Shown: positions 308 through 18,347 of the stretch, in pieces | Position numbering within the stretch: the stretch's first letter is position 1 | Layout of the letters: every line of letters begins with the position of its first letter | From: Rhodopseudomonas palustris HaA2 | Lineage (GTDB): Bacteria > Pseudomonadota > Alphaproteobacteria > Rhizobiales > Xanthobacteraceae | Direction of reading: 5' to 3' | Assembly (NCBI RefSeq): GCF_000013365.1 | Contig: NC_007778.1 | Span: 3,472,001 to 3,536,000, forward strand | Length of the DNA stretch: 64,000 nucleotides | Translations under genes and position numbers: made by a program | Notes under the pieces: model-generated | Told to the model about the DNA's origin: nothing | The model's input: the letters and a program-made list of their open reading frames with translations, nothing else | Database searches by the model: none

Positions 308-859
308 GACCGAGCAAACAGAACGCGGTTGACGGTCGCGAGGGCCGCCTACACTCGTCCCTGCGTCGAGCCCAAGGGGCTCGACGGCAGCGCCTTCTTA
401 GGCGCGCGCTCTTGCGCGGGGCGAGCGGCCCGAACGACTAGTCACCGAGCGACGGGGCCCCATGACTATCCGAGAGTGGCGGTGCGCCGGCACGGCGCAC
501 GAAGGCCGGGACCCGTGGCCCGGCCGAGAGCCACGAAGAATCGTCATGGGGGGAGCGAGGGAGACCGCGCTCGATCCAGCTTTGCATCGGAGCACCCAAG
601 AAAGTATTGGCGTTCTTCCGTTCTGAAGATTCCAACTTTTGCATGACGATCGGTCATATGCTGTCGGCTGCCGACCCGTTTACCGCGATCCTCCCGAAAA
701 TATTCTTTCCCAATGAATCGTTGGGATTTTGCGCGTTGAGCCGACCGGCACGGTCCGAGCGCGTTTGACCTGCGCGTGAGTTGATACCCACCATTGATGA
801 CAACCCCTGGGTCTTCGCGCTTCGCAGGCGCTCGCCAGGGGTCATCAACGGGTGAGATC
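308..859. other. Integrase-rep spacer with several inverted repeats
   Basis: I find no convincing gene in these 550 bases. They hold several inverted repeats: a 9-bp stem with a 3-base loop at 365-385, a 15-base palindrome at 643-657 (ATGAC, 5-base centre, GTCAT), a TCCCAA/TTGGGA stem at 708-726 followed by TTTT, and the larger repeat at 794-848. Rolling-circle replicons normally have their nicking hairpin close to rep, so one of these could be origin or operator DNA; that is inference only. Confidence 0.4.
794..848. repeat. Inverted repeat just upstream of rep
   Basis: The left arm 794-810 reads TTGATGACAACCCCTGG and the right arm 835-848 reads CCAGGGGTCATCAA. They are complementary except for two extra A residues in the left arm, with a 24-base loop. 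The right arm ends 11 bases before the preferred rep start, so the hairpin could act on rep transcription or translation, or be part of a double-strand origin. Confidence 0.5.
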
Positions 860-2545: not shown

Positions 2546-2600
2546 CACCGGCTCTGCGACCCGTGACCGCGTCATCCAATGAATTCATTTTCTAACCGCA

Positions 2601-2699
2601 CGACTCCTTGTCAACAATTTCGACTCCTTCCCGACAATCCATCGATTCCTTGTCAACAATTGGCGAGTCTTTACGAGTGCGCCAATCGAATCCTTGGCC
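2601..2699 (+). repeat. Iteron-like array of about 21-bp repeats downstream of rep
   Basis: Direct repeats begin at 2601, 2621, 2643, about 2664 and 2687, spaced 20-23 bp, or two helical turns. The best copies are CGACTCCTTGTCAACAATTT (2601-2620) and CGATTCCTTGTCAACAATTG (2643-2662). The copy at 2621 is diverged in the middle, and those at 2664 and 2687 keep only the CGAnTC(C/T)TT core. The array begins 55 bases after the rep stop. Phased repeats like this usually bind a replication or partition protein. Rolling-circle replicons rarely use iterons, so a partition or regulatory role is equally possible. Confidence 0.6.
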
Positions 2700-2810
2700 T
2701 GAGTTCTTGATGATCAATTTCGATTAGTTACGCGACATCCAGTCCCTGGACTCATAGATGGCGCTGACGTAGCACGGATACCCATGTTCTTTCACTACAG
2801 GAGAGACGCA

Positions 2811-3080
2811 GTGACCATCATGACTTTGCAGCCCCAACCAGAACTCTCGCTTTGGACCGGCTGCGATGAAATTCAGTGCGCGGAGGCATCCACTTCTACC
2901 GTAGTCGTTGGGCTCGGCGTCGAAGCCGCCGAGCCAGATGGATGGTATTGGGAGATCGTCAATGTCGCGGATGACGTCATCGCCAGCGGCTTTGTCGACA
3001 CAATAAGTGCCGCAACAACTGTTGCGATTGCCGCTGCAACACGACACCTCGCTGAGAGGCATCATGATGGCGGGCGATAG
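2811..3080 (+). CDS. Small hypothetical protein
   Basis: About 89 residues from GTG 2811, chosen because AGGAGA lies six bases upstream; ATG 2820 is an alternative and the frame is open back to ATG 2784. The protein is acidic and Ala/Val rich, with a WYWEIVNVADDVIASGF stretch and a C-terminal helix rich in Ala and His. No signal peptide, membrane segment or known motif is visible. It lies in the same direction as rep and the relaxase genes, so it is probably cargo or a maintenance gene of the mobilisable element. Function unknown. Confidence 0.55.
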   Translation: MTIMTLQPQPELSLWTGCDEIQCAEASTSTVVVGLGVEAAEPDGWYWEIVNVADDVIASGFVDTISAATTVAIAAATRHLAERHHDGGR

Positions 3081-3226
3081 CTAGACGCACCGTCGCCCGC
3101 CTATGCCCGAAAAATAATCTTCATCGGCGATTCCTCAATCAATCCCCGGGATTTTCGTCGATTGCCTCCCTAGCGCTTCCGTCGAAGCAGTTGACTCTCT
3201 CTGCTGAGCGCGGACAGCATCTGTCT

Positions 3227-3251
3227 GTGAGTGACCTACTAAGTCATTCAC
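3227..3251. promoter_or_regulatory. Operator-like palindrome upstream of the 3286 gene
   Basis: GTGAGTGAC (3227-3235) and GTCATTCAC (3243-3251) form a 9-bp inverted repeat with one mismatch and a 7-base centre. It ends 34 bases before the start of the next gene, a typical operator position. The binding protein is unknown. Confidence 0.4.
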
Positions 3252-3285
3252 TGCGGTAGGACACCAGTAGAAGGAGCTAACAACG

Positions 3286-3729
3286 ATGGCAAAGCGAATT
3301 TCAGGACTCGCGGTGACGGACGTCGCATCGCTTGAAACGCACATTGATAAAGTCCGCGGAAAAGCGAGGTCCTGGACGCTTTCCGCGCCTGACGTCCGTC
3401 GCATCGCCGATCTGGCCGAGCAACGGCTCGAACAAATGTTCGTCGCGACGACCCACCGGCGCGGAGCTTGCGTCACGGCTCGCTCGGCTGGACCGGCGTC
3501 GACGGCGTACAAATATTCTGTGATCGGCGCGGAAGTCGTTCTGCGTCGCGCAAAGGACGGCTGGCGCATGACTGACTATAGTTGCTGTAATGTGTATCCC
3601 TGCACCGCCGAGCGGATCAGAATCGAAATCACACCCGCCCAGGCGGAAAAGTCGTTCGACACGATGCGACGTCGCCTGCGCGTGACGGTGAGGTCTCTGG
3701 TCGATTCCGACTTTGCGGCCGCAGCATAA
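3286..3729 (+). CDS. Hypothetical protein, 147 residues
   Basis: The start ATG 3286 is preceded by a good AAGGAG site. The sequence opens with a basic, probably helical region (MAKRISGLAVTD) and has LSAPDVRRIADLAEQRLEQM in the first half. A Cys pair in YSCCNVYPC follows, then an Arg-rich C-terminus. The central part contains a short aromatic-rich segment, but no catalytic motif is recognised. It belongs to the run of small plus-strand genes between rep and the mobilisation genes and is preceded by a 25-base operator-like palindrome. Role unknown; a plasmid accessory gene is the likeliest reading. Confidence 0.6.
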   Translation: MAKRISGLAVTDVASLETHIDKVRGKARSWTLSAPDVRRIADLAEQRLEQMFVATTHRRGACVTARSAGPASTAYKYSVIGAEVVLRRAKDGWRMTDYSCCNVYPCTAERIRIEITPAQAEKSFDTMRRRLRVTVRSLVDSDFAAAA

Positions 3730-3827
3730 GTGCGAGGGAAGGATGTCAAGAATGACGCCCACAGCCCGGCTGCGATCCGAGAAGGCCAAGCTAGCTGGAA
3801 ACGAGTGAACTAGAGGGAAATCATGTG

Positions 3828-4115
3828 ATGAAGTTCGAGCGAATTCACACCGACGGGCTTGCGTTTTCGGAGTTGCCAGATGACAAGAAGCCCATCACAC
3901 ACGAACGAGTGGTTGCGCTTGCTGACGACCTCAGAGACGTAGCGCATGCGTACAACGCTCTCGTTCATCGTCGCACGGTCGATATTGATGAAGCTGCAAC
4001 GTGCTTCGCACTCGGCAGACTTGCTTACGAGGTTCACGATAAACTCCAAGAACTCCGCTTTGCTATTACCGACGCGCAGAGGGGCACCCTAGATCATCAT
4101 TCCCGGAATGCGTAG
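3828..4115 (+). CDS. Hypothetical protein, 95 residues
   Basis: ATG 3828 (or the overlapping GTG 3825) follows an AGAGGGA site. The protein is mainly helical by eye: ITHERVVALADDLRDVAHA, then CFALGRLAYEVHDKLQELRF. There is no signal peptide or metal motif. It is the last small gene before the terminator at 4154, so it may end a transcription unit with the 2811 and 3286 genes. The gap to the previous gene is about 100 bases. Function unknown. Confidence 0.55.
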   Translation: MKFERIHTDGLAFSELPDDKKPITHERVVALADDLRDVAHAYNALVHRRTVDIDEAATCFALGRLAYEVHDKLQELRFAITDAQRGTLDHHSRNA

Positions 4116-4153
4116 TACGAACGCGAGCTGTACAATGTAAACGAGACGAAGAT

Positions 4154-4181
4154 GGCCCCGGTATAGGGGCCGTTTTCTTTT
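4154..4181 (+). terminator. Rho-independent terminator
   Basis: A perfect GGCCCC (4154-4159) / GGGGCC (4166-4171) stem with a six-base loop is followed by GTTTTCTTTT. It lies 38 bases after the 3828 gene and closes the small-gene unit before the oriT-like region. Confidence 0.8.
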
Positions 4182-4354
4182 GAACCGCCCCACCGTCATA
4201 TAACATGGCTTACTGATCATTCCTGACTATCGAACTCGAAGATAGCCAGCCATAGTGTCATACGCTTCGCGATGACCCCAAGCTGGCTAGGGGGAGGCGT
4301 GCCCCCCCATGGACCCCCACCAGACGGCTTCAGAGAGCCCTTTCCGTCGTCACC

Positions 4355-4442
4355 GTATGACGACATGGGTGCGCTATCTCACCGCTGTCGTCATACACCA
4401 TGGCTTGTCTGGCACACGCGTCGGACGACATGGCTTGTCCGA
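4355..4442 (+). other. Putative origin of transfer (oriT) upstream of mob genes
   Basis: Three repeat structures lie directly upstream of the MobC-like gene. The first is a perfect 11-bp inverted repeat, GTATGACGACA (4355-4365) and TGTCGTCATAC (4386-4396). The second is a direct repeat CATGGCTTGTC at 4399-4409 and 4429-4439. The third is a 6-bp inverted repeat TCGGAC/GTCCGA at 4421-4426 and 4437-4442. The 20-base loop of the first repeat contains GGGTGCGCTA, faintly like the conserved core beside nic in IncQ-type oriTs. The position, 50 bases before mobC, and the architecture fit oriT; the nick site cannot be fixed by eye. The flanking 4182-4350 bases hold C-rich runs but no gene. Confidence 0.55.
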
Positions 4443-4492
4443 TTTCCGCCGGTGATCTCATCATGACGTAGTACTCATCAAGAGGCCGCGTC

Positions 4493-4891
4493 ATGTCCAT
4501 CCCTCCCGTTCTATTTTTTCGCGCGGATTTGCCGACCCGCACAGCAGTCCAGGAGGCCGCACGCGCCGCAGGCACCACAGTGTCCGGCTGGCTCCGCGCC
4601 GCCGCCCGGATGCGCCTTCCGGACGGCGGCGCGACACTTCCGCCGTTGCCGCCGAGCCCGCGTCGCCGTCCTGTCCGCATCCCGTCTGATGACGTTGCCG
4701 CCGTCTCTCGCCTCACCGGTGAAGTCGGCAGACTGACAGGCGCGACGATTCAACTCGCGCGATCACTGCGTGAGACGGGCTGCGCTCCGGAGCATGAGAC
4801 GACTGAGACGATTCTGCGCGATTTGCGCGCAACGCAGGCCGATCTGGTCAGCGTCGTCGATCGTCTCCGAGCGGCAGAGGCGACCGAGTGA
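4493..4891 (+). CDS. mobC: MobC-like relaxosome accessory protein
   Basis: 132 residues starting at ATG 4493. The N-terminal third looks like a ribbon-helix-helix DNA-binding fold: LFFRADLPTRTAVQEAARAA, then TTVSGWLRAAARMRL. The second half has LTGEVGRLTGATIQLARSL, which resembles the conserved helix of MobC/MobS proteins that help the relaxase open oriT. A Pro/Arg linker separates the two parts. The stop overlaps the relaxase GTG (GTGA at 4888-4891), indicating translational coupling. The assignment rests on these patterns and on position beside the relaxase; no alignment was run. Confidence 0.7.
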   Translation: MSIPPVLFFRADLPTRTAVQEAARAAGTTVSGWLRAAARMRLPDGGATLPPLPPSPRRRPVRIPSDDVAAVSRLTGEVGRLTGATIQLARSLRETGCAPEHETTETILRDLRATQADLVSVVDRLRAAEATE

Positions 4892-7014
4892 TCGCAGGCG
4901 CAACCCGAGGTTCCGGCGGCCCCGCCCTTGCTCGACATCTCATGTCCCGCAAAGGCGGCCAAACGGTTGAAGTCATGCCCGCACGCGGGCTGGCGGCGGA
5001 GCATCTGCGCGATCAGCTTCGGGAGCTTGTAGCGTCATCCGCTCACGGCCGGACGGATCGTCCGGTGCACCACGTGCATATCGATCCTCCGCCGGACTGC
5101 TCCGATCCGGACGCGGTTATCGCGACATTTCTCGATCGTTACGAAGCCGAATTCGGGCTACAAAACTCGCAGCGCGCGGGTGTTTATCACGTCAAGGCCG
5201 GTCGCAAACACGCTCACGTCGTCTGGTCTCTCGTTCGTGACGACGGCTCCGTTGTCTCGCTCGCGCACGATCACGCGCGAAGAGAAAAAGTCAGCAGAAT
5301 CGTGGAGTTTGAATGCGGTTTGCCGTTCACGAAGGGCAAACACAATCGCAGTGCGGCGGCAGCGCTCCTGAAAGAGGGCCGCGCCGACGTTTCCGACGCA
5401 ATGCTTGCTGCCGGTTTGCTCGATGGTCGCCGACCGGTGGCGCATTCGACGCCGCGCCAACGCGCCCAAGCCGAGCGCACTGCCGTGCCGCTCGACGAAA
5501 TCCGGACGCAAGCTCTCGCAGCGTGGCAAGCATCGGACGACGCGCGGTCGTTCGCCGTCGCGCTCCACTCCTTTGATTTTTCGGTCGCGACCGGCGAGAG
5601 CGGCTACGTCCTGATCGACCGGTCCGGGAGCGTGCATAGCCTGAATCGCGTCCTCGCTGCAGCTGCACGTGCAGAAGGCGTGGAAAAGATCACCTCCGCG
5701 GCTGTCCGCTCACGCTTGCGCGGCATCAACTTTCAAAATGTGGAGGAAGCCAAAAATGCCCGATCAGAACGACGCAATACTAACTCAGGCGACCGGCGCG
5801 CGGGAGGCATCGGAGCGCCTGTTACCGCTCCTGAGCCTCCTCGACGAGCAGACCGGCGAGACGAGCCCGTTGGACGAGCTCAAGGGCTTGTTGCAGGCGA
5901 TCGTCGAGATTTTGGGTCATCACACGAGCGCGTTGCAGCGGCTCGAAAGCGCATCCGTGACCACGCCGCCGCGCAACGCATAGGCGACATCGATCTGCAA
6001 GACTTAATTCGTAACAAGGGGGAAGTGATGGCAAAGATAAGAGCTCAGAACTTTAAGGCGAAAATCCTCGCAGAAGTCGCCCCCGCGGGGTTCAACGCGC
6101 ATGCATTTTCCGATGATCTGCGCATGATTCAGAAACCGACGCCCGCGCGACCGGCGGCTCGGATTATGATGATCGATGGCGGCTGGCTTGAGTACGATGC
6201 AGCCGGGCGTAGCATCCGAACATGGGGTCCCACCGGCCGCGCGCAAATACTCGCCGCCGCGCTCGCCGATAAGCTCGGCGTCGAGCCGGAGCATCTGGCG
6301 AAAACCGCATCAGTCGGAGCCGATGTCGACGCTCTGAAAGTGACAAAAGTGTCGGAAGACACAGTCAACTCGCTGGTTTTGTGGTGGACCGCTCGTGGCT
6401 ATTCGGCGACCGACGGCCCAGACGGATGCTGGGTCACGGCAGGCTACGCTCGCATCCGAGACACTGGCGATCAGCTTGAGATTCACGGCGGCCTGACGGT
6501 CAAAGTCATCGATGCAACGATCCTGAAAGCAAAGGAAGCTTGGGGCGGCGGCGTGTATCTCGACGGCGACTGGACTCAAGATGAGCAAGATAAGCTCTGG
6601 ATCGCCGCCCAGCGCGCGGGCGTAAAAGTCGAAAATTGCCAGCCGTCGCTGTCGATTCAAGATGCGTGGCAGCGGGAGCAAGCCGCATCCGCGAAATCCA
6701 TAAAAACGATTTGCGCCGCGCGATCCGCAATCGCAGAAGCTACAGACGTTCGCGATGCCGCCGCCGGTGATCTCGAAGCTATGCACCGGCTTCCGCAGCC
6801 GTTGCAGGCCTTCGTCGTCTCACACCTCGACGACGATCAGCGCAGGCATCTGTCTGGGCAGTCCGTCGCCGACATCACCGCCGCCTTGCCGCGCTTCCGC
6901 GACCTCGGTCAGTCTGAACTCGAGGAATACGAGCGCACCGGCCGCACGTTCACGCCGCCGAAGCCGCGTCGCGATGATCGCGACCGCAACGCCGCGCACA
7001 CGTATTCGCAATGA
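4888..7014 (+). CDS. Relaxase/mobilisation nuclease with LPD7-like C-terminal domain
   Basis: 708 residues starting at GTG 4888. The N-terminus (RGSGGPALARHLM, then VMPARGL) matches a relaxase family common in Rhizobiales. His clusters at HHVHIDP (about residues 61-64) and GRKHAHVVWS (His 108 and 110), with YHV just before, would bind the metal. Residues about 290-370 are an Arg-rich linker that also encodes a nested gene in another frame. A region from about residue 420 to 590 (RIMMIDGGWLEYDAAG, later WIAAQRAGVKVENCQP) resembles the large polyvalent protein domain LPD7 found at relaxase C-termini. The enzyme would nick oriT and pilot the strand during mobilisation. No Tyr is present in the first 80 residues, so the usual N-terminal nucleophile is not evident. 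Confidence 0.8.
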   Translation: MIAGATRGSGGPALARHLMSRKGGQTVEVMPARGLAAEHLRDQLRELVASSAHGRTDRPVHHVHIDPPPDCSDPDAVIATFLDRYEAEFGLQNSQRAGVYHVKAGRKHAHVVWSLVRDDGSVVSLAHDHARREKVSRIVEFECGLPFTKGKHNRSAAAALLKEGRADVSDAMLAAGLLDGRRPVAHSTPRQRAQAERTAVPLDEIRTQALAAWQASDDARSFAVALHSFDFSVATGESGYVLIDRSGSVHSLNRVLAAAARAEGVEKITSAAVRSRLRGINFQNVEEAKNARSERRNTNSGDRRAGGIGAPVTAPEPPRRADRRDEPVGRAQGLVAGDRRDFGSSHERVAAARKRIRDHAAAQRIGDIDLQDLIRNKGEVMAKIRAQNFKAKILAEVAPAGFNAHAFSDDLRMIQKPTPARPAARIMMIDGGWLEYDAAGRSIRTWGPTGRAQILAAALADKLGVEPEHLAKTASVGADVDALKVTKVSEDTVNSLVLWWTARGYSATDGPDGCWVTAGYARIRDTGDQLEIHGGLTVKVIDATILKAKEAWGGGVYLDGDWTQDEQDKLWIAAQRAGVKVENCQPSLSIQDAWQREQAASAKSIKTICAARSAIAEATDVRDAAAGDLEAMHRLPQPLQAFVVSHLDDDQRRHLSGQSVADITAALPRFRDLGQSELEEYERTGRTFTPPKPRRDDRDRNAAHTYSQ
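5756..5983 (+). CDS. Nested out-of-frame gene inside the relaxase (MobB-like arrangement)
   Basis: A 75-residue frame starts at ATG 5756 with GGAGG at 5742-5746, nine bases upstream. It lies entirely inside the relaxase gene in a different frame. The product begins MPDQNDAILTQATG and has a strongly amphipathic helical core (LLPLLSLLDEQTG, then LLQAIVEILGHHTSALQRL). The same DNA in the relaxase frame encodes a low-complexity Arg/Ala linker, the kind of segment that tolerates a second reading. In IncQ plasmids mobB is likewise nested in mobA; that is established for RSF1010, and the analogy here is my inference. The product could be a small relaxosome or coupling accessory. Confidence 0.65.
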   Translation: MPDQNDAILTQATGAREASERLLPLLSLLDEQTGETSPLDELKGLLQAIVEILGHHTSALQRLESASVTTPPRNA

Positions 7015-7445
7015 CCGTCGCCCCGCATATCCTGCGGCGGTACGTGCTCGACCGAGCCGCCGGACGCATGCCCCGCCCGGAATGGTCATACTACGCGCCG
7101 GACATTGGCGCTTGGATCCTCGCTGTCGAGGCGTCCGCGCGACGTTACGAGCATCACCGGCGAGTCCGGATCGACGGGGTACCGTGGTGCGACGTCCTCG
7201 GTCATCGCACTGAGGTGGCGGACGACCTGCAATTGCAGACGTATTTTCTCACAATCGCGTCGGATGGCTGGTCTCGCCTCGCGATCGAGGTCATGCAGCA
7301 TCCGACCCGCTGCCTGAAGTCCTGGCGCGCCGCCGGCGCGCTCATCCTCGCCGCCGTCGATCCGAACACGGAGGCTTTCGGAGGACCACTATCCGACTGG
7401 CCGGAGTCTCGCGGCACCGGTCCGCGCAGCATGCTGCCGCGTTGA
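7011..7445 (+). CDS. Hypothetical protein coupled to the relaxase
   Basis: 144 residues starting at ATG 7011, whose ATGA overlaps the relaxase stop at 7012-7014, so it is the last gene of the mob operon. It starts MTVAPHILRRYVLDRAAG and contains PEWSYYAPDIGAWILAVEAS, a basic patch RRYEHHRRVRIDG and many Trp residues. It has no signal peptide, clear membrane segment or known motif. Coupling to the relaxase suggests a mobilisation-linked role, but nothing in the sequence proves it. Confidence 0.6.
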   Translation: MTVAPHILRRYVLDRAAGRMPRPEWSYYAPDIGAWILAVEASARRYEHHRRVRIDGVPWCDVLGHRTEVADDLQLQTYFLTIASDGWSRLAIEVMQHPTRCLKSWRAAGALILAAVDPNTEAFGGPLSDWPESRGTGPRSMLPR

Positions 7446-7574
7446 TCTGATGGGTTCGTTTTCGGGATGAGCAATCATCCACGCCCCCCTCGTGGAGGCC
7501 AAGAAACACAAGCGCAAATGCTTCGAATTGTGGCAGGCTTCCGCCACATTTTTCGAATTGGTCTTTGAGTACCG

Positions 7575-7760
7575 CTTTCCCATCGCATCACTCGCCCCTT
7601 CCTCGACCTGGCACATCGGCACGCCGGGCGGCCCCTGCTGGGCCTCGCAAGGGGACCGAGGCTCCTCCGGCCTTCGGCCTACGTGCGCCCGCACCACTCC
7701 CCTTGCGCCGACGCACCGGCGCGCCTTCACGGTCGCGGGGCGAGCGATGCGATGGGAAAG
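7575..7760. repeat. Large nested imperfect palindrome, possible single-strand origin
   Basis: The outer arms 7575-7598 and 7737-7760 are complementary over 24 bases with one mismatch. Inside them, CGCAAGGGGA (7646-7655) pairs with TCCCCTTGCG (7698-7707), and the centre has GGCC-TTC-GGCC. A 186-base strand could therefore fold into one long branched hairpin. Reading frames exist on both strands here but look like by-products of the symmetry. Rolling-circle plasmids need a highly structured single-strand origin, which this could be; a structured RNA or an attenuator are alternatives. Confidence 0.55.
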
Positions 7761-7847
7761 GTCATCACCGCTGGGAGATGACTGCCGCACCGGCGGCAGG
7801 ACGACAGAGGGGGGAATGGGCTCGCTCCGCTCAGGGAAAGACGATAG

Positions 7848-8102
7848 CAGGCGGCTGAGAACGAGCGCGAAACGCTCCAAGCCTTCCGCCGTGACCGCGC
7901 GGAAAAGGACGCACTTGTCCTGAAGAACCTCGAAGATCGCCAGGCACTCCAGCAAGATATCAAAGCACGGCGCACGATTGCGCATCAGGAGTTGATGCGG
8001 CTGCGCAAAACCAGATGCGGTTGGCTTCGTTGCCAACGCATTTATTTCTCGGATGGTCGGTTGCCCTGCAACCGGACTAGGCCCGCGCCAATGCGCCAAT
8101 GA
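7848..8102 (+). pseudogene. Remnant resembling a relaxase C-terminal tail
   Basis: An 85-codon open stretch without its own start runs to TGA 8100-8102. Its product is a charged helix (ERETLQAFRRDRAEKDALVL, then DRQALQQDIKARRTIAHQ) that resembles the coiled tail of Rhizobiales relaxases. It then degenerates into a Cys/Arg-rich end. An in-frame stop at 7845 cuts it off from any upstream coding sequence. It probably records an older mob gene displaced by the insertion of other DNA. The rest of 7446-8366 outside the palindrome shows no gene. Confidence 0.4.
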
Positions 8103-8366
8103 GCGGGGGGAAGCCGTCAAAACTGCCGCCAGCGGAGGGGTCACCCGTCATGCACAAGCGAAGCGCGGAAGGTCGGGGAAACCGCTAGCTGCGCCGAAGT
8201 GAACGCCAAGGCTTGCTCTTGACGGAGGACGGAGCCGCAGACCCCTTAAACCAGACACAGAAAACGCCAGCCCGCCTGCTGGCATCCATTCACCCACAAA
8301 ACTCGAATGAAACCTTCCCAAGTGCGAGAAGTGCGCCGAACAATACTCGTCCGAGAATACTTCCAA

Positions 8367-11300
8367 TTAGATTTTTCCACCAACACCTTTAAACTTTTCA
8401 ACGAAAGCAGAAATGCGCTGGAACACGTTGCGTTTCTTGTTGAGATACTCCGGATTGAGGGGGCTCATTTTTGGCAGGATCGAATTCAGCTCCGTACCGT
8501 TCTCGCTCGCATACTCTCGCTTAATTGATGTCGCGATATAGCGCTTCGCAGCGTCCGGATTCAGCTTTTCGCCGATAATGAGCTCTTCCGCTTCGCGGCG
8601 TTGTTCCGCTTGTGCGAATGCAAAGAAGGCCTCGATCACCCCCGCTTTGTCCCCGAGTTCATCGAGATTTGTCTGATTTATGAAATCGACGATGAGGCTT
8701 TCCTTTGCACGGTTGCCGATACTCGCGCGGATGACGCGGCGAATTTCACCGACGAGCTCAGACTTGCTTTTCGTCTTTTTATTATGCTCAAAAATGAGCT
8801 CAAGAATGTAATCAAGATTGATTTCCTGGGATTTCAGCAGATCAACCTCGAAGACAACATCGCCCCAATCAATATTCGACTCGACTTGCTCAGAGCTTGC
8901 CTTTTCTCGGCGAAGCCAGTCCCGGATATCGTTGTAGGTCGAACGGTAGTCCTGGATCCTCCGGTCTTCGGGCATTTTGACAGTCTTCAGGTTTTCAACG
9001 TCATCATCGCTCAGATGATGCCGTTCTTTGAAGGCTGTTAGAGCTTCGGCATCCCTCTGATCGATCTCCTGAAGCTCTCTGAGGTTGGCAAATTCATCGT
9101 AGTTCTGCAGGATATTCTCAACACGGAGATACTCACCGAAGAGCTTCGCAAAGGCCTTTTTGTCAGCCTCCTTTGCAATCGCCGAGGGGTCGGGGAAACG
9201 CTCTTCAAGCTCCTTCACAACATCCATGAAGCCGCGTCTTGCTTCTCCGGTCGTCTGGTCCGTAAAGCCCTCCATGTATTCCGAGTAGCTTTTTTCGAGG
9301 ACGACGTTCCTGGTGTTCGCATTACCGAACAGCGTAATCGCTTTGACGGTCGCCTCTTCAAGGTCGCGGAAGGTGACGATGTTTCCGAATGACTTGGTCG
9401 CATCATAAATGCGGTTGGTACGGGAATAGGCCTGAATGAGACCATGAAAGCGCAGGTTCTTGTCCACGAACAGCGTGTTGAGCGTCGGCGCATCAAAGCC
9501 AGTCAGGAACATGCCCACCACAATGAGCAGATCCACTTCTTTGGACTTCACCCGCTTGGCCAGATCCCGATAATAGTTCTGGAAGCCTTTGCTATCGACG
9601 CTGAAGTTCGTTTTGAAAAACGCATTGTAATCCGCGATGGCCGCGCTCAGGAACTCCTTGGCGCTGCTGTTTAGCGCGGAAACCTCAAAGCTCTCGTCGG
9701 GAATGTCGCCAATTGCGTCCTGCTCCTCATTAGCCGCAAATGAAAAGATCGTCGCGATTTTCAATGTTTTATCGCTGTCTGCCTGCAGCTTGTTCAGGCT
9801 CTCATAATAGAGCTTTGCCGCCTCGACACTGCTCACGGCAAACATGGCATTGAAGCCCTTATTGTCCCCATACAGTCGATGCGTTTTGCGGCGAAAGTTG
9901 TCTAGGATGTACTGGGAAATCTCGCCGATGCGCTGAGGATTCTGAAGCGCCTGCCTATTCTCAGCGGCAGTCAGCTTCTTCTCATCCTGCTCGGTCTCAA
10001 TGACCTTAAATTGCGGGCGCACATCGTTATAATCAACCTTGAATTTCAGCACCTTTTCGTCACGGATGGCGTCGGTGATGACGTAGGAGTGAAGCTCGCT
10101 CCCGAAGACGCTGGCCGTTGTCTCCCCACCCGAAGCATTTTCAGGGAAGATCGGCGTGCCAGTGAAGCCAAACTGGCAGAAGGATTTGAATTTGCGTTTG
10201 AGGTTCTTCTGCGCCTCACCAAACTGGCTGCGGTGACACTCATCGAAAATGACGACAACGCGCTGGCTATAGACAGGCAGGTCGCCTTCGCTTTTCATCA
10301 GATTGTTGAGCTTCTGAATCGTCGTCACGATGATTTTGTTGTCGTCCTTGGACAGATTGCGCTTCAAACCGGCGGTACTGTCTGAACCGTTCACGCTGTC
10401 CGGAGAGAAGCGCTGATACTCCTTCATCGTCTGGTAATCGAGATCTTTGCGGTCGACCACGAAAAAGACCTTGTCGATGAAGTCGAGCTGTGTGGCGAGG
10501 CGCGCCGCCTTAAAGCTGGTCAGCGTCTTGCCTGAACCTGTCGTGTGCCAGATAAATCCGCCGCTTTCGGGCTTGCCCAAAATCTTGCCTTCAGAGGTCT
10601 TGGCTTCGAAGGAGCTTCTGATTTTCCTTAGGATGCGTTCTGTCGCCGCGATCTGGTAGGGGCGCATCACCAAAAGGGTATCGCTTACATCAAACACGGA
10701 ATAGTCCAGCAACACCTTCAAAAGGGTGCGCTTCTCGAAGAAGGTCGCTGTGAAATCCTTTAAGTCCCGGATCAGACTGTTGTCAGCCTGCGCCCAGTTC
10801 ATCGTGAAATCGAAGCTGTTCTTGTCGCGCTTGGTCGTGTTGGCAAAATAGCGCGTGTCGGTGCCATTGGAGATCACGAAGATCTGGAGATATTTGAAAA
10901 GCGAGCTGTCAGAGTTGAAGCTCTCTTTGCTGTAGCGGTGAATCTGATTGAACGCTTCGCGGATGGCAACGCCGCGCTTTTTCAGCTCGACCTGCAGCAG
11001 CGGCAGACCGTTCACGAGGATCGTTACATCATAGCGATTCGCATGCGTTCCTGCCTGCTCGAACTGCTTGATGACCTGAACCTTGTTGCGGCTGACATTG
11101 CCCTTGTCGACGAGGTAGATATTCTGAATCCGCCCATTGTCGAAGACGAAATCGAAGATGTAGTCGTCATGGAGCTTGCGGGCCTTGTCCGTTGCGCTGT
11201 CGCTTGGATTGTCCAAATAGGTTTCGACGAAGCGCGCCCATTCCTTATCAGTAAACTGAACATCATTGAGCGCTTGCAACTGAACACGCACATTGGCCAG

Positions 11301-11483
11301 CATGGCGTGTGTTGACTTCAGATCGGCCCGAACTTCATAGCCCTGATTGCGTAGGTCCTGGATCAGCTCGCGTTCAAGATCGGCCTCGGACTGATAGCTG
11401 TCAGCGGCTTCCCAGGCGCGCACATATTTATCGAGCACGATGAAGCGATTGGTCTCAGCTATGGGAGTGGTCTGCTCAGGCAT
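8367..11483 (-). CDS. hsdR: Type I restriction enzyme, R (motor/endonuclease) subunit
   Basis: About 1038 residues from ATG 11483, chosen because GGAAGGTGAAA precedes it; the frame stays open to 11522. The N-terminal nuclease domain shows [10 protein letters not shown] and [10 protein letters not shown] (the D...ExK motif, about residues 150-167). Helicase motor motifs follow: TTGSGKT (Walker A, about 315), FDECH (about 412) and GFTGTP. HsdR translocates DNA and cuts it far from an unmethylated site when bound to the HsdM-HsdS complex. The start overlaps the prrC stop by eight bases (ATGCCTGA), so it is the last gene of the hsd-prrC operon. The length is normal for type IC R subunits and the gene looks intact. 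Confidence 0.95.
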
Positions 11484-12681
11484 TTTCACCTTCCCAATGC
11501 CAACTTTGATAATTCTTGGCAATATTCTTGACTAAGTATCGAAAAACCCGCTTGTCATCATCGCTTATGTACTGAATCTCTTCGCCAGATTGCTTGGAGT
11601 GGCTCGAAATATTTAGAATTCTTGATTGATAAGGATTTGGCCTACCGTCGGCGGTCTTGGGAAGAAGTTCATTCCAACGATTATGACCGAGAAATGTCGA
11701 GCTTTTTTCCAAAATATTCCGTATGAAGTTGAAGTGATACTTTTTTATTTCCCCATTTTCTGAAGCTGCTTGAAGCTCTCGGAGCAAGTACAGGTGATAC
11801 GAAAACGGGGAGTCGTTCGGCTGTGGCGACAAACTGAAAGTTCCATCTCCTTCTTTTTCAAGGCGGTATTTTGAGTACGTCTTTCCCTTGTAGCTCAGTG
11901 CTTTGTCATCACCATTTAATTCATTGTGAAGTACATTAAAGAATAATGGGTTGTGCGTTGTAATGACAAACCTCAAACCTACGCCTTCGACATAAGCACT
12001 CCTTTTTACGAGGTGAGCTACATCGACCGCAAGCTGGATGAGGTGGTTCTCATCGAGGGAGCTGACAGGATCATCGATGAATATGTACTCGAGGTTATTG
12101 AATTGATCCGTCTCACGCTCGTCCACGTCGACGACGTTTCGAGTACTGATGACCTGATCCAGCAGGCAATAGAACACGCTCCAAATGAAATTGCTTTCTT
12201 CACCCTTCGAGATTTTCAGATTTCCGACGCTTTCGTCGTCGCCGCGTTCGAGTGAGAAAGTTACTTCAGAAAACGCAGGCACGGTGACCTCGTTGCCATC
12301 CCTGCCTTTGGCTTTGTACTCCTCGTTGAAGCGGGGCGTCAGATTCGGCTGAGTGTAACGCTGAAATTCGGTGATGACGTTGATGTCGAGCCCAAGATCT
12401 TCAAAGGCGGATTTGGTGAACGCATTCGGCTGGATACAAAGCTTCCGCTCGACATCGCCAGTCAGATCATTGTCCCAATAGAACAGGTCTTCGGTGAAGG
12501 CGTTGTAGTAGAGCACCTTCGGGCGATAATCGTCGTCCCGTTCCTCGGTCTTCGGGTCGATCAGTTCCCTGAATTCGCGCGACAGTCGCGTCTTGCCGGA
12601 GGCATTGAACGCATAGATCAGCTGCACCTTCTTGTCGGCATCTCGCAGCGTTTTAGCAATTTCGGTCAGCGTCTGTCCCAT
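11476..12681 (-). CDS. prrC: PrrC-type anticodon nuclease
   Basis: 401 residues, close to the 396 of Escherichia coli PrrC. The N-terminus ([12 protein letters not shown], then [19 protein letters not shown]) strongly resembles PrrC, with the P-loop NASGKT near residue 30. A Walker B/signature region [14 protein letters not shown] lies near residue 205. In PrrC a C-terminal Arg320-Glu324-His356 triad cleaves tRNA-Lys; here Arg321-Glu325 (FIRNILE) and His361 (NISSHS) occupy matching positions. PrrC is held silent by the type I restriction complex and released when a phage disables that complex. The gene starts directly after the hsdS stop (TAA-ATG) and overlaps hsdR, the same order as the EcoprrI locus. 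The substrate tRNA is not established for this copy. Confidence 0.88.
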
Positions 12682-13917
12682 TTAGAAAGCCTCCGCGTCC
12701 GGCTTGGGGAAGCTCAGCAGCTGATCGCGGTAATAGGCATACTGCTTTTCACGCAGCTCGATTTCACGCGGCAGGATCTCAGTGAGGGAAGTCGTCAGCG
12801 CATCCAACTTGTCGAGGATGGCGGCGACGCGCTTTTGGGCTTCTAGCGATATTTTAGGGTCATCTGGAAAGGGAATCGGGATTGGTATTTTCTCGACTTG
12901 ATGACTCATCAGCTTCGGGTTGCCCATTCCACTGTAAACATGCTTCTTGGCCTCCGTCGAAAGCCAAAAAGATAAAAATTTTAGGTCCAGCGGGCACGTT
13001 CCATTTTCTTTTATTACGCCGCAAACGTTAGTAATCGAGAATTTTTCGTTTCTATAGAATACAGTTCCGGCGTTTGCTCCGTCTGTGGTCCAACTGACGT
13101 ACTCACCGTCAAAGTCAAACGTGTCGATCTGGCCAATCATGCCGTTGTTTGCAGTTTGGGAGCTGTAGACCGGGTACACACCGGCGTTATCTCGCAGGTA
13201 GCCCTTCGACATAACTCGCCCTCGGCGTAGAGTCGCGATATCCCCCAGCGTCTTCCACTCCACCTCATCTTCATTGAAGGTCAAGAGCTGGTCGCGGTAG
13301 TGGCTGTATTGTTTTTTGCGCTGGGCAAGCTCGGCGGCAAGCCCCGCGGTAAGCTCAGCGGTAAGCTCGGTGAATGTGTCCAGTATTCGGACGATCTCCC
13401 CCTGTATCGCCAGCGACTTCTCCGGATCATCCGGGCATGGAATGGGAATTTTGAACGCTTTCACCTTGCCGTCTGATATCGCTGGGTATGCAGCCCCACT
13501 CTGATTCTCCTCGACGTAATTCTTGAATTCTGTTGTGCCAAGCCAGTGCAAAATCCACTTAGGTAGTACCTGATCCTTCTTTGCTCTGAGCACGCAGTAA
13601 CCCGTGCTGGCGACGTTTCCGGCCAGTTCGGAGTCGATTAGGCAGTATCGTTGTTGAGCGGGGCGCGTCGTAGCGAAAATGACGTCATTTTCTTTAACGA
13701 GCTTCTGCGCTCTGCTTGGCGCGGTCTCGGCTGTAATCTCGCTTGCCTCGGTAACGCGTTTGGTTTTGATGTCGACGGAGGTGAGATCAATATATTGGTA
13801 AACGCCGTCGGCTTGTGACCATTTGATGTTCGCTGTTGGTTGAGTGACCTCCCCCAATGGTTCCCACTCCACATCAGCCCCATCCAGCAGCTCCTCCAGA
13901 AACCCTGCCGCGCTCAT
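12682..13917 (-). CDS. hsdS: Type I restriction-modification specificity subunit
   Basis: 411 residues with two target-recognition domains. Each is followed by a helical spacer ending in QY(S/A)(H/Y)YRDQLL, at about residues 183-214 and at the C-terminus. The first domain begins [16 protein letters not shown], the second [20 protein letters not shown]. HsdS reads the bipartite DNA site for both methylation and cleavage. Its central spacer carries TAEL-like four-residue repeats, a type IC feature. ATG 13917 overlaps the hsdM stop (ATGA). The TRDs do not let me predict the recognition sequence. Confidence 0.93.
13327..13374 (-). repeat. hsdS: Four 12-bp repeats encoding the TAEL-like HsdS linker
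   Basis: On the plus strand four 12-base units start at 13327, 13339, 13351 and 13363, each beginning AAGC. Read as protein they give repeated L-(T/A)-A-(E/G) blocks in the central HsdS spacer. In EcoR124-type enzymes, gain or loss of one such unit changes the spacing between the two half-sites recognised. The same slippage is possible here. Confidence 0.7.
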
Positions 13918-15461
13918 GCGTCAATCTCCGCAATGATGGCGTCGATGTCGGCGCGCAGCTGGTCGATCCGCAGAACCGTGGTTCTGATCTTCGCATTCAG
14001 CTCACCAATACTGACAATCTCGCGCGTGTCGCGCGGCTCGACATAGGAGCTGACCGAGAGGTTATAGCCGCGCTCCACGATGATCTCATACTGCACCGAG
14101 GCGGCGACATGATCGACGTCTTCCTTACGATCAAAAATCTCCATCACCCGCGCGATGTGATCGTCCGTCATCAGATTGGTGTTGGTGGCCTTCTTGAAAA
14201 ACTCTTCGCCGCTGGCGTCGATGAACTGGATGGCCGTGTCCGTCTTGTTCTTGGCGAGGACAAGGATCGTCACGGCGATGGTCGTGCCATAGAAGAGGTT
14301 GGAGGCGAGCGCTATCACTGTCTCAACGTAATTGTTATCGACCAGATATTGTCGGATCTTCTTCTCCGCCCCGTCGCGATAGAAAATGCCCGGAAAGCAG
14401 ACGATCGCCGCGCGGCCCTTGGCCGAGAGATAGCTAAGCGCATGGAGCACAAAGGCGAAATCGGCCTTTGATTTGGGTGCCAACACCCCCGCCGGAGCAA
14501 AGCGGTCATCGTTGATTAGGGTCGGATCGTCTGAGCCGATCCACTTTACCGAATAAGGCGGGTTGGAGACGATGGCGTCAAAGGGTTTGTCGTCCTGGAA
14601 ATGCGGCTGGGTCAGCGTATCGCCGCGCTGGATATTGAACTTGTCGTAGTTGATGTTGTGCAGGAACATGTTCATGCGGGCGAGGTTGTAGGTCGTGTGG
14701 TTGATCTCCTGCCCAAAGAAACCCTCTTCGATGATATGTTCGTCAAAATGCTTCTTCGCCTGCAACAGTAGCGAGCCGGAGCCGCAGGCCGGGTCGTAAA
14801 TCTTGTTAACTTGTGTTTGCCCGTGCATGGCGAGCTGCGCGATGAGCTTTGAGACATGTTGAGGCGTGAAGAACTCCCCGCCGGACTTGCCCGCATTGGC
14901 GGCGTAGTTCGAGATCAGGAATTCGTAGGCATCGCCGAACAAATCAATCTGGCTGTTGTGGAAGTCGCCGAAATCGAGCTCTGCAACGCGTTTCAGGACC
15001 TTGGCTAATCGGCTGTTCTTTTCCGAGACGGTATGGCCAAGACGCGTGCTGGTCGTGTCGAAATCGGCGAAAAGACCTCTGATGTCCTGCTCGGAAGGGT
15101 AGCCATTGGCCGATGATTCAATCGCCGCGAAGATGTGCGCTAGGTCGGTGTTCAGGCTGTGATTGATGTTGGCGTTCTTCGCGACATTCACGAACAGCTG
15201 GCTGGGATAGATGAAATAGCCCTTGGTCTTGATGGCATCATCCTTGATGTCATCGGTGATGACGTCATCGGATAGAGCCGCATAATCGATGCTCTCATCA
15301 TCCGCCTCGATATAAGCGGCGAAGTTCTCGCTGATGAACCGATAGAAGAGTGTACCTAGGACATATTGCTTGAAGTCCCAGCCATCAACGGAGCCGCGAA
15401 CATCGTTTGCGATATCCCAGATTTTCCGTTGTAGCGCCGCGCGTTGTTCTTGCCCCGTCAT
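13914..15461 (-). CDS. hsdM: Type I restriction-modification DNA methyltransferase subunit
   Basis: 515 residues. An N-terminal helical domain ([18 protein letters not shown]) precedes the catalytic domain. Motif I is [13 protein letters not shown] near residue 225 and motif IV is NPPYSVKW near residue 300, the signature of N6-adenine methyltransferases. The product methylates the host site and anchors HsdR and PrrC. ATG 15461 overlaps the stop of the small upstream gene, and its own stop overlaps hsdS. Length and motifs are those of an intact type IC HsdM. Confidence 0.95.
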
Positions 15462-15736
15462 GTTTTCTTATCCCTTTTCGCGCTGGCCACTCGATTGATG
15501 TTGTCCTTAGTACTCACACGCAGAAACCGCCCGGTGTCGCCAACGTTGAACCTGGGCTGTTTGTTGTCGTGAGCGGCTGAGTGGTGGCTTCGTGCTCGCG
15601 GCGCATGTGCACCGACATACGAGCGCATGAACTCACGCAGGACTTGGGCGGCGGGTTTGTCTTCCGCCTTGCAAGCGGCAACGAATTGCTCCCGCAATTC
15701 CCGCTGCACCCTGATTCTGATACCGACATCCTTCAT
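15458..15736 (-). CDS. Small ribbon-helix-helix-like protein, first gene of the hsd operon
   Basis: About 92 residues from ATG 15736; the frame stays open to GTG 15793, and neither start has a clear ribosome site. The product opens [18 protein letters not shown], a beta strand followed by a helix, then [15 protein letters not shown], the usual RHH pattern of plasmid and antitoxin repressors. A basic tail follows. Its stop overlaps the hsdM start (ATGA), so it is translated with the restriction genes. It may be an autoregulator that controls the order of expression after transfer into a new host; that role is inferred. Confidence 0.7.
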
Positions 15737-16628
15737 AGCGTGAGCGGTGTAGCCAATGGATACACGTATGTGAAGGCTCTTTCGCACTACCACAGATGTC
15801 GGTCAGTCAGAATCTGGGCGGGGTAAAGCACAGACAACCGAGTTCATCTTTGGCAAGATGGTGGATCCAATCGGCGTCGATTTTGCCGCTCAACGGGTGG
15901 TCGAAATTTGCTTACGCAAAGGCGGTCTCCGTAGCAGGGCGCTACCCGTCCCGACTCGCCAGCCGACGAACAGCAGATCCCACCTCTGCAGGAAAATACA
16001 ATACCATCTTCAGAATGTTGACATTCGACGCTCGAAATGGAACACAAGCTTGTAACAGAATCGAACGTCGAATTCCTGCTTTATCGTCAGATATCAATGG
16101 GTTACACGAAGAATGGCGGTGCATCCCACCCCTTCCGCCATAAACTGTTGATTGTAATTTGCAAAATCTGTTGACGGGCAAACATACGTTTTACAACCAT
16201 AACGCGAAAGTGCATTTCGACCTGCAACAATGCTGCAACAAGTTTTCTTGTTGCAGAGGATCTCTCCGGCGCCGACTTTGCCGCAACCGAGCGGTCGTCT
16301 CTGAATCGTTGGCTGCCACCCCAACCGCAACGTTCTTGAATATCCCTACCGTTGCGCTTTGAGGATCGGAGAATCGGGATGGCCGCCTGACTGGCCCAGC
16401 CGCGGTCCTCACCGCATGCTTACGCGATGTTCGCTCGGATCGGACTCCTACGGCCGCTCACGGGAACCCGATAGCGGACAGTAGATCTGGTCCGGCACCC
16501 GATCTTCCTAGTTCGAGATAATCAGGTTGCGATTGTGGAGGCCTAATTCGGCATATCGTTATAGCCTTTCAAGCAGCATCGGCCGGCATCGATCACCCCA
16601 CTCCGAATCACATGAATCAATTGTCTTT
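15737..16628. other. Spacer between the hsd operon and the Fic gene
   Basis: This roughly 900-base gap holds no convincing gene on either strand. It should contain the promoter of the minus-strand hsd operon near 15740-15830, though I cannot assign its -35 and -10 boxes. Its clearest feature is the perfect hairpin at 16233-16256. An 8-bp inverted repeat ATTCGACG/CGTCGAAT spans 16022-16072. Confidence 0.4.
16233..16256. repeat. Perfect 10-bp inverted repeat with extra half-site
   Basis: CTGCAACAAG (16233-16242), a TTTT loop and CTTGTTGCAG (16247-16256) form a perfect hairpin. A third copy of the half-site, CTGCAACAA, lies at 16222-16230. No U-tract follows, so this is more likely a protein-binding site than a terminator. 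Confidence 0.5.
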
Positions 16629-16721
16629 ACTCAGCCGAAAATAATTGCAATTTTACGGCCTAAAGAATTGCCCTCACTCGCACAAAATAATTGTTTCTTC
16701 ACTGCACAAAACAATTGCATC
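16629..16721 (+). promoter_or_regulatory. Four imperfect repeats directly upstream of the Fic start
   Basis: Units start at 16629, 16655, 16676 and 16701. Each has the form AC(T)...C(A)CAAAATAATTGC; the cleanest are ACTCGCACAAAATAATTG (16676) and ACTGCACAAAACAATTGC (16701). Spacing is 21-26 bases and the last unit abuts the ATG. AT-rich repeats in GC-rich DNA at this position look like operators, perhaps for autoregulation by the AbiEi-like domain of the Fic protein. Confidence 0.55.
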
Positions 16722-18347
16722 ATGCCAGAAGTTGTTCCTCTAAAGGCGAATCCATCCGTGGCTGCTCCAAATGAAAAGCTGGAGAAGTCGCTATCCGCTC
16801 TCAAAAAGCTGACGAGCGACGGGGCCCGACGCGTTTTTAAGACGGCGGAGATCGGACGCACGGACCGTGAGCGGCTTGTGAAAAACGGGTTCCTCAAAGA
16901 GGTCATGAACGGCTGGCTGATGTTGGCCCGCACCGGCGACAGCACATCTTGGTACTCGTCTTACTGGGAGTTTTGCAGAAGCTACCTCGACGAGCGTTTT
17001 GGGGATGATTGGGTACTCTCCCCCGAGAGCACCATCCCCTTGTTGGCCGGCAACACGAACGTTCCGGCTCAGATCGTCGTTCAGGCCCCAAACGCAAACA
17101 ATCTTGCGGTCAAACTTCCGCACGACACCTCCATTTTTGCCTACAAAACCAAGATCCCGACAGCTGCTCCGGCAGCCTTCGCGGGCATGCGCGTCTATCC
17201 GACCGTGGAAGCTATATGCAACGCCGCCCCAAACTTCTGGAGCACCAACAAAACGGATATGGTAGCCCTGCTTGGCTCAATTCGGGACCGCTCGTCTATC
17301 CTCAAAGTTCTGCTCGGGAGTGGAAAGACCACTGCAGCCGGCAGGATTGCAGGCGCGTATCGCCAGTTAGGTAAGCCTGCGATCGCGGACGAGATCGTCG
17401 CCACCATGAAAAGTGCCGACTACCAGGTTCGCGAAGAAGCGGATCCCTTCCGGGGCGTTGTCGAAATCACTCTGGGCGCTGGCAAACCCGTCGCACCAGT
17501 CGTGACGCGTGTGCGCCTGATGTGGGCTCAAATGCGGGATGCAGTTCTCGCCGTTTTCACTGCCGAACCCAGCAAGGTCGACGACATCGACGCCTATATC
17601 GATGCGGTCAACGAACGCTACACGTCGGACGCATACCATTCGCTATCCATCGAAGGATATTCGGTCAGCGAAGAGCTCATCGAGAGAGTCAAAAAGGGCC
17701 AATGGAGCCCTGAGACAAACGAAGGTGACAAGAAGCAGACCGACGCGATGGCGGCCAAAGGATATCAGTTGGCATTCGACGAGGCCGTCAAATCGGTTCG
17801 GCGGGTGCTCGAGGGTGCGGATGCGGCAACGGTCGCCGAAGAAGATCACCTCAAATGGTTTCGTGCGCTGTTCCAACCGTCCATCGCCGCGGGTCTCCTC
17901 AAAGCAGAGCGTCTTTCTGGTTACCGGCAACATTTCATATTCATCAAGAATTCCGGACACTCGCCGACAGCCTGGGAATCCTTGCCCGATGCGATGGAGA
18001 CGTTCTTTGAATGCATCAGAGAGGAAAAGGACCCACGGGTTCGTGCCGTTCTCGGGCATTTCTTGTTCACGTTCATCCACCCTCTCCCAGACGGCAACGG
18101 CCGCTCGGGACGCTTCCTGATGAACGTCATGCTTGCGGAAGGCGGATATCCCTGGACGATCATTCCCGTCGATCGGCGCAACGAGTACATGCAGGCCCTA
18201 GAGAAAGCGAGCGTTCAAGGCGACATCACGCCGTTCGCGCAATTCGTGGCCGACTGCGCGCGGCTCGAGCCTCCACCACCGCGGCGATTGAAGGCCGGTG
18301 AAGTCCAGGCAGAAATCCCAGAAGCCGCGGCAGCACCAAGCCCATGA
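16722..18347 (+). CDS. AbiEi-like/Fic domain fusion protein
   Basis: 541 residues from ATG 16722; the frame is open to 16527 but that stretch is the repeat region. The N-terminal 230 residues resemble AbiEi-type antitoxin domains, with a winged-helix start (GRTDRERLVKNGFLKEVMNG). The C-terminal half is a Fic domain with HPLPDGNGRSGR at residues 453-464, the motif that transfers AMP to target hydroxyl groups. An inhibitory motif [ST]xxxE[GN] is present as SLSIEG (307-312) ahead of the core, marking a class II, self-restrained Fic protein. It may be a single-chain toxin-antitoxin or phage-defence factor next to the restriction locus; the target is unknown. No separate antitoxin gene is seen. 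Confidence 0.85.
   Translation: MPEVVPLKANPSVAAPNEKLEKSLSALKKLTSDGARRVFKTAEIGRTDRERLVKNGFLKEVMNGWLMLARTGDSTSWYSSYWEFCRSYLDERFGDDWVLSPESTIPLLAGNTNVPAQIVVQAPNANNLAVKLPHDTSIFAYKTKIPTAAPAAFAGMRVYPTVEAICNAAPNFWSTNKTDMVALLGSIRDRSSILKVLLGSGKTTAAGRIAGAYRQLGKPAIADEIVATMKSADYQVREEADPFRGVVEITLGAGKPVAPVVTRVRLMWAQMRDAVLAVFTAEPSKVDDIDAYIDAVNERYTSDAYHSLSIEGYSVSEELIERVKKGQWSPETNEGDKKQTDAMAAKGYQLAFDEAVKSVRRVLEGADAATVAEEDHLKWFRALFQPSIAAGLLKAERLSGYRQHFIFIKNSGHSPTAWESLPDAMETFFECIREEKDPRVRAVLGHFLFTFIHPLPDGNGRSGRFLMNVMLAEGGYPWTIIPVDRRNEYMQALEKASVQGDITPFAQFVADCARLEPPPPRRLKAGEVQAEIPEAAAAPSP

Follow-up and report, generated by a model that had tools for sequence, protein, structure and literature searches.

The minus strand between positions 8367 and 15736 of a 64,000-nucleotide (nt) stretch of the Rhodopseudomonas palustris HaA2 genome (NC_007778.1, positions 3,472,001 to 3,536,000; this whole stretch is the window, to which all coordinates refer) carries an hsdM-hsdS-prrC-hsdR operon with a small open reading frame (ORF) in front. 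This operon is very probably an EcoprrI-type, two-layered guard against phages that includes a latent anticodon nuclease, PrrC, the C-terminal domain of which was replaced by recombination with a domain of a second class. HsdM, HsdS and HsdR would assemble as a type IC restriction enzyme. This enzyme would keep PrrC, a product of the same operon, latent and release it when a phage inhibits the enzyme. We infer latency, trigger and the lysine tRNA (tRNA-Lys) substrate by analogy with the E. coli PrrC mechanism, as outlined in PMC3014915 and PMC3710099. The recombination would have swapped the tRNA-recognition and nuclease domain (about amino acids (aa) 230-395) for a diverged second class, and the Hsd subunits and the ATPase domain of PrrC, presumed to be the holding and sensing parts, would remain those of an alphaproteobacterial-type parent operon. 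As such, the locus is an ordinary EcoprrI/PrrC-type guard and adds one further genome to those known to carry this well-studied system. The mismatch between the C-terminal third of PrrC and the rest of the operon is absent from the first-pass annotation of this DNA.

The C-terminal nuclease domain of the HaA2 PrrC seems to be a substitute that came from a different lineage. Relative to the Alterinioella operon (locus L088), HsdM is 93%, HsdR 92% and the ATPase half of PrrC 88% identical, whereas the nuclease half is 41% identical. Seven kin operons were compared in this way: Alterinioella (L088), Paracoccus (L060, excluded for HsdM), Marinicaulis (L064), Rhodobiaceae (L071), a Zymomonas plasmid (L002), Komagataeibacter (L061) and Caulobacter (L070). 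Nearly all 50-residue segments of HsdM and HsdR are about 70-100% identical to these kin, the lowest value being 54% (L070 HsdM, residues 451-500). Overall, HsdM is 90.7-93.4% identical to its counterparts in L002, L061, L064, L071 and L088, and HsdR 91.0-92.7% to those in L002, L060, L061, L064, L071, L088 and L174. Along PrrC, identity to the kin is 62-98% over aa 1-120 and 161-200, 52-80% over aa 121-160 and 68-78% over aa 201-240, and only 28-48% over aa 241-400. The DNA follows the same course in 60-nt segments, with identities of mostly 68-95% in the N part (lower segments: L070, 50 and 63%; L071, 37 and 57%; all kin, 55-78% at 12291-12232), 28-65% across 11991-11512, 60-70% at 11511-11452, 87-93% in the first hsdR segment (11451-11392) and 58-95% in later ones. 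The GC content of prrC drops from 0.519 in the N part to 0.415 in the C part; the C part of the kin has 0.507-0.529 in six of the seven and 0.459 in L061.

A PrrC alignment of 120 rows was compiled from the HaA2 protein and 119 fetched loci, with two identical row pairs (L141/L158, one gene fetched twice, and L184/L185). Trees were built from 87 of these rows, the 33 others sharing 80% identity or more with a retained row, being shorter than 340 aa, or one of L007-L010, L192 and L145. The C-domain tree is divided by a branch of 0.8 (support 100) into class A, with 25 rows including E. coli PrrC and the eight kin of the HaA2 protein, and class B, with 62 rows including the HaA2 protein itself. 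Class labels were initially taken from a Tyr at position 324 (26 rows), and L115 was reassigned to class B because the C-domain tree places it there. On the N-domain tree, the HaA2 protein sits inside a nine-row clade (support 100), and the HsdR and HsdM trees likewise place it beside the same class A kin. Forcing it together with the eight kin on the C-domain tree costs 97 log-likelihood units (approximately unbiased (AU) test, p = 1.99e-6), for a grouping picked post hoc with the pattern already seen.

That choice weighs against the explanation given at the outset, as do several other points. All trees are quick or FastTree builds, and 42 of the 84 branches of the N-domain tree have support below 80. 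The end branch of the HaA2 C-domain is long (0.69). A search for a donor found none, the closest C-domains being at 67% identity in the aligned set, 63.5% among plasmids and 62% among viral contigs. Finally, class B does not preserve the tRNA-contact peptide (E. coli aa 284-294) and misses two residues beside Asp287.

It is very unlikely, nevertheless, that no exchange took place and that the C-terminal domain of this lineage evolved fast. The long end branch fits such a course, and so does the generally lower conservation of C-domains, since the N-domain is the better conserved in 1016 of the 1037 strong change-points among 6555 pairs of rows. However, 39 positions are diagnostic of class, and of the 32 that lie from aa 251 on, the HaA2 protein agrees with class B at 23 and with class A at 3, and has another state at 6. 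Moreover, the C-domains of the kin agree with one another, and rapid divergence was rejected on the class B states, the AU test and the abruptness of the GC step.

Conflicts between the ATPase and nuclease domains recur among the rows examined, and the N-domain data reject class A as a single clade (p=1.2e-4). On the N-domain tree, the final class label changes 17 times, against a mean of 21.9 and a minimum of 17 in 500 shuffles. On the HsdR tree (74 of the 87 rows) it changes 10 times (shuffles averaging 14.6, with a minimum of 11), on the HsdM tree (68 of the 87 rows) 11 times (averaging 14.5, with a minimum of 9) and on the C-domain tree once, which is true by definition. Raw labels change 18, 11, 12 and 2 times, respectively. 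These counts indicate that the nuclease domain is weakly linked to the ATPase domain in this sample. Collapsing weak branches leaves the parsimony counts unchanged or raises them, as any fork left unresolved is scored against grouping, so that the collapsed-branch counts are not lower bounds. The weak N-tree branches and quick builds make the number of exchanges uncertain, and the case for an exchange in the HaA2 protein rests on its own AU test.

The nuclease domain of PrrC thus looks exchangeable, a property already established for the DNA-recognition domains of HsdS. A description of PrrC domain exchange was not found in the open-access literature searched, as far as those sources were covered, which is not proof of absence. 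Judging by the mosaic, PrrC may be divisible into an ATPase half that faces Hsd and a nuclease half that faces the tRNA, with many combinations of the two tried in nature. A broader proposal, less likely than not, is that PrrC consists of two modules, that its RNA-cutting module is traded between otherwise conserved type IC operons, and that the exchange alters the cut target or the phage countermeasures that are effective; within the set, the window copy is the cleanest recombinant. If so, a single operon would harbor two targeting parts that can be exchanged, one in hsdS for DNA specificity and one in the 3' third of prrC for the attack on RNA. Should the two classes cut different substrates or respond differently to phage tRNA decoys and repair enzymes, natural pairs such as the HaA2 operon and its Alterinioella-type kin would make it testable which half determines latency and which the target.

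Other combinations are present in the same set. Within class B, L083, L075, L099 and L112 exhibit the reverse conflict, with C-domains that are 89-93% identical and N-domains that are 58-60% identical. Plasmid operons of Klebsiella (L004) and E. coli (L006) are 96.5% identical in HsdM and 88% in HsdR, and their PrrC proteins are 49% identical in the N-domain and 35% in the C-domain, which suggests that prrC may also be exchanged as a whole gene. The carrier of the L006 operon, an IncY plasmid, has a terminase gene and a Phd/Doc pair close to the operon and is thus apparently a P1-like phage-plasmid. The cluster of change-points near aa 250 does not count as evidence for a crossover hotspot, as it partly reflects the generally lower conservation of C-domains.

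The substrate of the HaA2 PrrC is presumed, by analogy, to be tRNA-Lys. In E. coli PrrC, Asp287 contacts the wobble base (PMC3014915), and its equivalent in HaA2 is Asp290. The consensus around this residue is K.GDsNkSFsYHL in class A (28 rows) and q.nDs--PFsYHL in class B (86 rows), and the absence of two residues next to Asp287 means that the substrate could differ. It has been argued in a review that PrrC substrates may vary since the tRNA-contact stretch varies. Consistent with this, 25 of the 39 class-diagnostic positions fall at aa 301-400; the mean identity of the HaA2 C-domain to class A C-domains is 38%. The guard might accordingly be the same but cut, through its class B domain, a different tRNA or a different form of tRNA-Lys, the exchange having been selected for a change of target or for evasion of phage tRNA-Lys decoys or repair. 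This seems rather unlikely, as Asp290 is kept in nearly all rows and PrrC170, described in PMC11555353 as 35% identical to EcoPrrC, still targets tRNA-Lys. Furthermore, L007-L010, which have the PrrC170-type gene order, likewise are without the two residues, the sequence of PrrC170 itself lying outside the comparison. The host also speaks against a different target. Its genome yielded 49 tRNA matches and two tRNA-Lys genes by ARAGORN, with anticodons UUU and CUU (a weak match, L059, yielded no tRNA). The comparison of tRNA-Lys anticodon loops proposed in the first-pass annotation gave identity: tRNA-Lys(UUU) shares with that of E. coli K-12 the 13 central bases of the 17-nt stem-loop, including the loop CUUUUAA. 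Together with the presence of a MnmA/TrmU gene, this indicates that the host offers PrrC a tRNA-Lys substrate like that of E. coli.

The identification of PrrC, and its likeness to the E. coli protein in size and catalytic triad, had been claimed in the first-pass annotation and hold up in the alignment. The yardstick was the 396-aa "anticodon nuclease" of L006, encoded on the E. coli plasmid record NZ_CP116245.1, with R at residue 320, E at 324 and H at 356, in agreement with the numbering of the E. coli triad in PMC2610378. It aligns with the 401-aa HaA2 protein such that Arg321-Glu325-His361 and Arg320-Glu324-His356 occupy equivalent columns, and the triad is kept in every row. The size falls within the 341-416 aa range given for PrrC in PMC2610378. 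The motifs of the ATP-binding cassette (ABC) type, namely Walker A, signature, Walker B/D-loop and the His of the H-loop, are complete (Table 1), E161 and H243 being present in 120/120 rows and S158 and G160 in 119/120. The Rx4-6H motif that defines the HEPN RNase superfamily, including a PrrC/RloC branch (PMC3710099), matches R354-x6-H361, both residues of which are invariant in 73/73 rows. The best family match is PrrC and not a non-nuclease AAA protein; Pfam AAA_13 matches at E=4.3e-17, and an NCBIfam search with PrrC gave no match. At the level of sequence only, the predicted tRNA-cleaving defense can be called intact, its triad being complete and its frame unbroken.

AlphaFold2 models of the HaA2 and L088 PrrC proteins have mean predicted local distance difference test (pLDDT) scores of 84.0 (73 sequences) and 78.8 (34 sequences). 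In the HaA2 model, R321 and E325 share the helix 314-331, and H361 comes after the long helix that is next in line (350-360). The closest solved folds are Rad50/SMC ATPase heads, the best of which reaches Z 12.9 with a root-mean-square deviation of 5.1 over 233 aligned residues, and the matches lie mostly within residues 1-293; there was no HEPN entry among the matches listed from these searches. Foldseek also returns Septu PtuAB and retron-complex chains. Phmmer with PrrC found no solved relative at E<=1, and a profile search of solved chains gave two matches only (E 0.055 and 0.08), both of them Rad50 entries. The ATPase of PrrC and RloC is likened to Rad50/SMC in PMC3710099. Since the closest folds are Rad50/SMC heads and the comparison mostly covers the ATPase half, it could be taken to mean that the operon carries a non-nuclease or dead ABC ATPase. 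This is highly improbable, and was rejected because the triad is complete, the frame is intact and the protein matches the PrrC family.

Nor is an RloC-type nuclease, with a zinc hook and wobble-excising activity, a credible identity for this protein, although ABC motifs and an R-X3-E-...-H triad are common to both according to PMC2610378. RloC proteins are there described as 658-897 aa long, about twice the size of the HaA2 protein, and as seldom linked to restriction-modification (R-M) genes. The HaA2 protein is encoded inside a type IC operon, a search of its 401 residues found no CXXC, and RloC was rejected on size and on that missing motif.

The gene order proposed in the first-pass annotation is borne out by the coordinates (Table 1) and by 100 of the 119 related loci, as read by tblastn with the proteins of the window. 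The other 19 are arranged as hsdS-prrC-hsdR (10), prrC-hsdR (4), hsdR-prrC-hsdM (4) and prrC-hsdM (1), and in 13 of the 14 loci that are without upstream genes only, prrC starts less than 1.4 kb from the end of the fetched stretch. The system is taken to be type IC because HsdM matches TIGR00497 and HsdR has an EcoR124_C domain (PF12008, E=6.7e-71), EcoR124 being of type IC according to PMC12707154. HsdR is counted from an ATG, a 1051-aa TTG start being an upstream extension only. The tight junctions were also described correctly: 4-nt overlaps join the small ORF to hsdM (15458-15461) and hsdM to hsdS (13914-13917, ATGA type), the prrC ATG abuts the hsdS TAA (12682/12681), and ATGCCTGA at 11476-11483 is common to prrC and hsdR. 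Of the 114 related loci in which prrC precedes hsdR, 31 likewise have an 8-nt overlap of the two genes, with start codons chosen by script.

Table 1. Features of the R. palustris HaA2 prrC locus, in window coordinates
Feature	Position	Strand	Evidence
hsdM, type I methylation subunit, 515 aa	13914..15461	-	TIGR00497 E=4.5e-193; N6_Mtase, HsdM_N
hsdS, specificity subunit, two target-recognition domains, 411 aa	12682..13917	-	Methylase_S, two stretches; PADLOC Specificity_I E=1.3e-119
prrC, latent anticodon nuclease (predicted), 401 aa, intact frame	11476..12681	-	PADLOC PrrC E=1.4e-137; alignment to 396-aa E. coli PrrC
hsdR, type IC restriction/translocation subunit, 1038 aa	8367..11483	-	HSDR_N, SWI2_SNF2, T1R_D3-like, EcoR124_C
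Replaced tract of prrC: C-terminal tRNA-recognition/nuclease domain (predicted), about aa 231-394, class B	11500..11991	-	nucleotide identity, GC, C-domain tree and AU test
PrrC Walker A, aa 24-31 (AFNASGKT)	12589..12612	-	G29, K30, T31 in 120/120 rows; first residue A in 116/120
PrrC Walker B and D-loop, aa 199-210	12052..12087	-	D203, D204, D210 in 120/120 rows
PrrC Asp290, equivalent of E. coli PrrC Asp287	11812..11814	-	D in 118/120 rows
PrrC Arg321, catalytic triad	11719..11721	-	120/120 rows
PrrC Glu325, catalytic triad	11707..11709	-	120/120 rows
PrrC His361, catalytic triad	11599..11601	-	120/120 rows
Small ribbon-helix-helix (RHH)-like ORF, 92 aa, leads operon, 4-nt overlap with hsdM	15458..15736	-	RHH_9 below cut-off
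Candidate attR, 19-bp repeat of tRNA-Ser(UGA) 3' end, right island end	16123..16141	+	BLAST E=5e-5

The N-terminal 40 aa of the 92-aa ORF that leads the operon resemble small plasmid proteins. Four plasmid relatives, picked non-randomly from the top of the match list, sit just upstream of R-M genes of differing types (Sphingobium type I, Paraburkholderia NotI, Pseudomonas XamI and Acidovorax NgoI), and some weaker matches are annotated as YacA or VbhA-type antitoxins. No relative was found at 1e-4 in 92 PrrC loci. The ORF may thus encode a regulator of a kind that stands at the head of R-M operons carried by mobile elements.

The operon forms the right end of an island of about 17.6 kb at tRNA-Ser(UGA), which comprises window positions 1-16141 and 1.4 kb before the window (L042), where the tRNA gene lies. 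In 5/6 genus loci, tRNA-Ser(UGA) directly adjoins the DNA that starts at window position 16142, indicating that the stretch in between is an insertion. The tRNA gene is followed by an open frame of at least 480 residues with a DUF6538 domain at its start, which we take to be an integrase from its position and this domain, the recombinase domain itself being unmatched. The island also contains a relaxase, a weak Rep_1 match and a NikA-like match, the last two being below cut-off. To its right, the GC content is 0.623. A Fic/DOC-domain protein is encoded there by a 606-aa frame (16527-18347, plus strand), with a 75% identical stretch in 1/16 genus genomes (G398); as this gene lies just outside the candidate attR, it is placed outside the island despite adjoining the R-M operon.

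Within the genus, PrrC is found in 1/16 genomes, that of HaA2 itself. At class level, 31/385 genomes match the PrrC model at E<=0.001, of which 8, including HaA2, are below 1e-100 and the remainder are weak and mostly in far longer frames; at phylum level, 19/398 genomes have protein matches at E<=0.001. A scan of genome contigs returned at least 534 relatives, the best 80 of which were used, as ranked by a query-headed alignment that may favor proteins of the HaA2 kind. PrrC matches occur in 113 plasmid records, 105 of them spanning at least 80% of the protein, and in 19 viral-contig loci; a search of the phage record collection found no relative at 1e-5.

Among known systems, PrrC170 of Klebsiella quasipneumoniae, compared by description only, is likewise a PrrC paired with a type I R-M system and acts against phages T1 and T7, but its order is HsdR-HsdS-PrrC-HsdM (PMC11555353). 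EcoprrI and its E. coli PrrC resemble the HaA2 locus in gene order, size, ABC motifs, triad, the Asp287 equivalent and the 8-nt prrC/hsdR overlap. They differ from it in that the C-domain of the HaA2 protein is of the other class and misses two residues of the tRNA-contact peptide, and in that the HaA2 operon has an RHH-like ORF in front and sits on a tRNA-Ser-inserted island. The operons of Alterinioella and of the Zymomonas plasmid pZZM405 share with HaA2 their HsdM (93.4%), HsdR (92.0-92.2%) and PrrC N-domain (80.9-87.7%), whereas their nuclease domain is of class A and 39-41% identical to that of HaA2.

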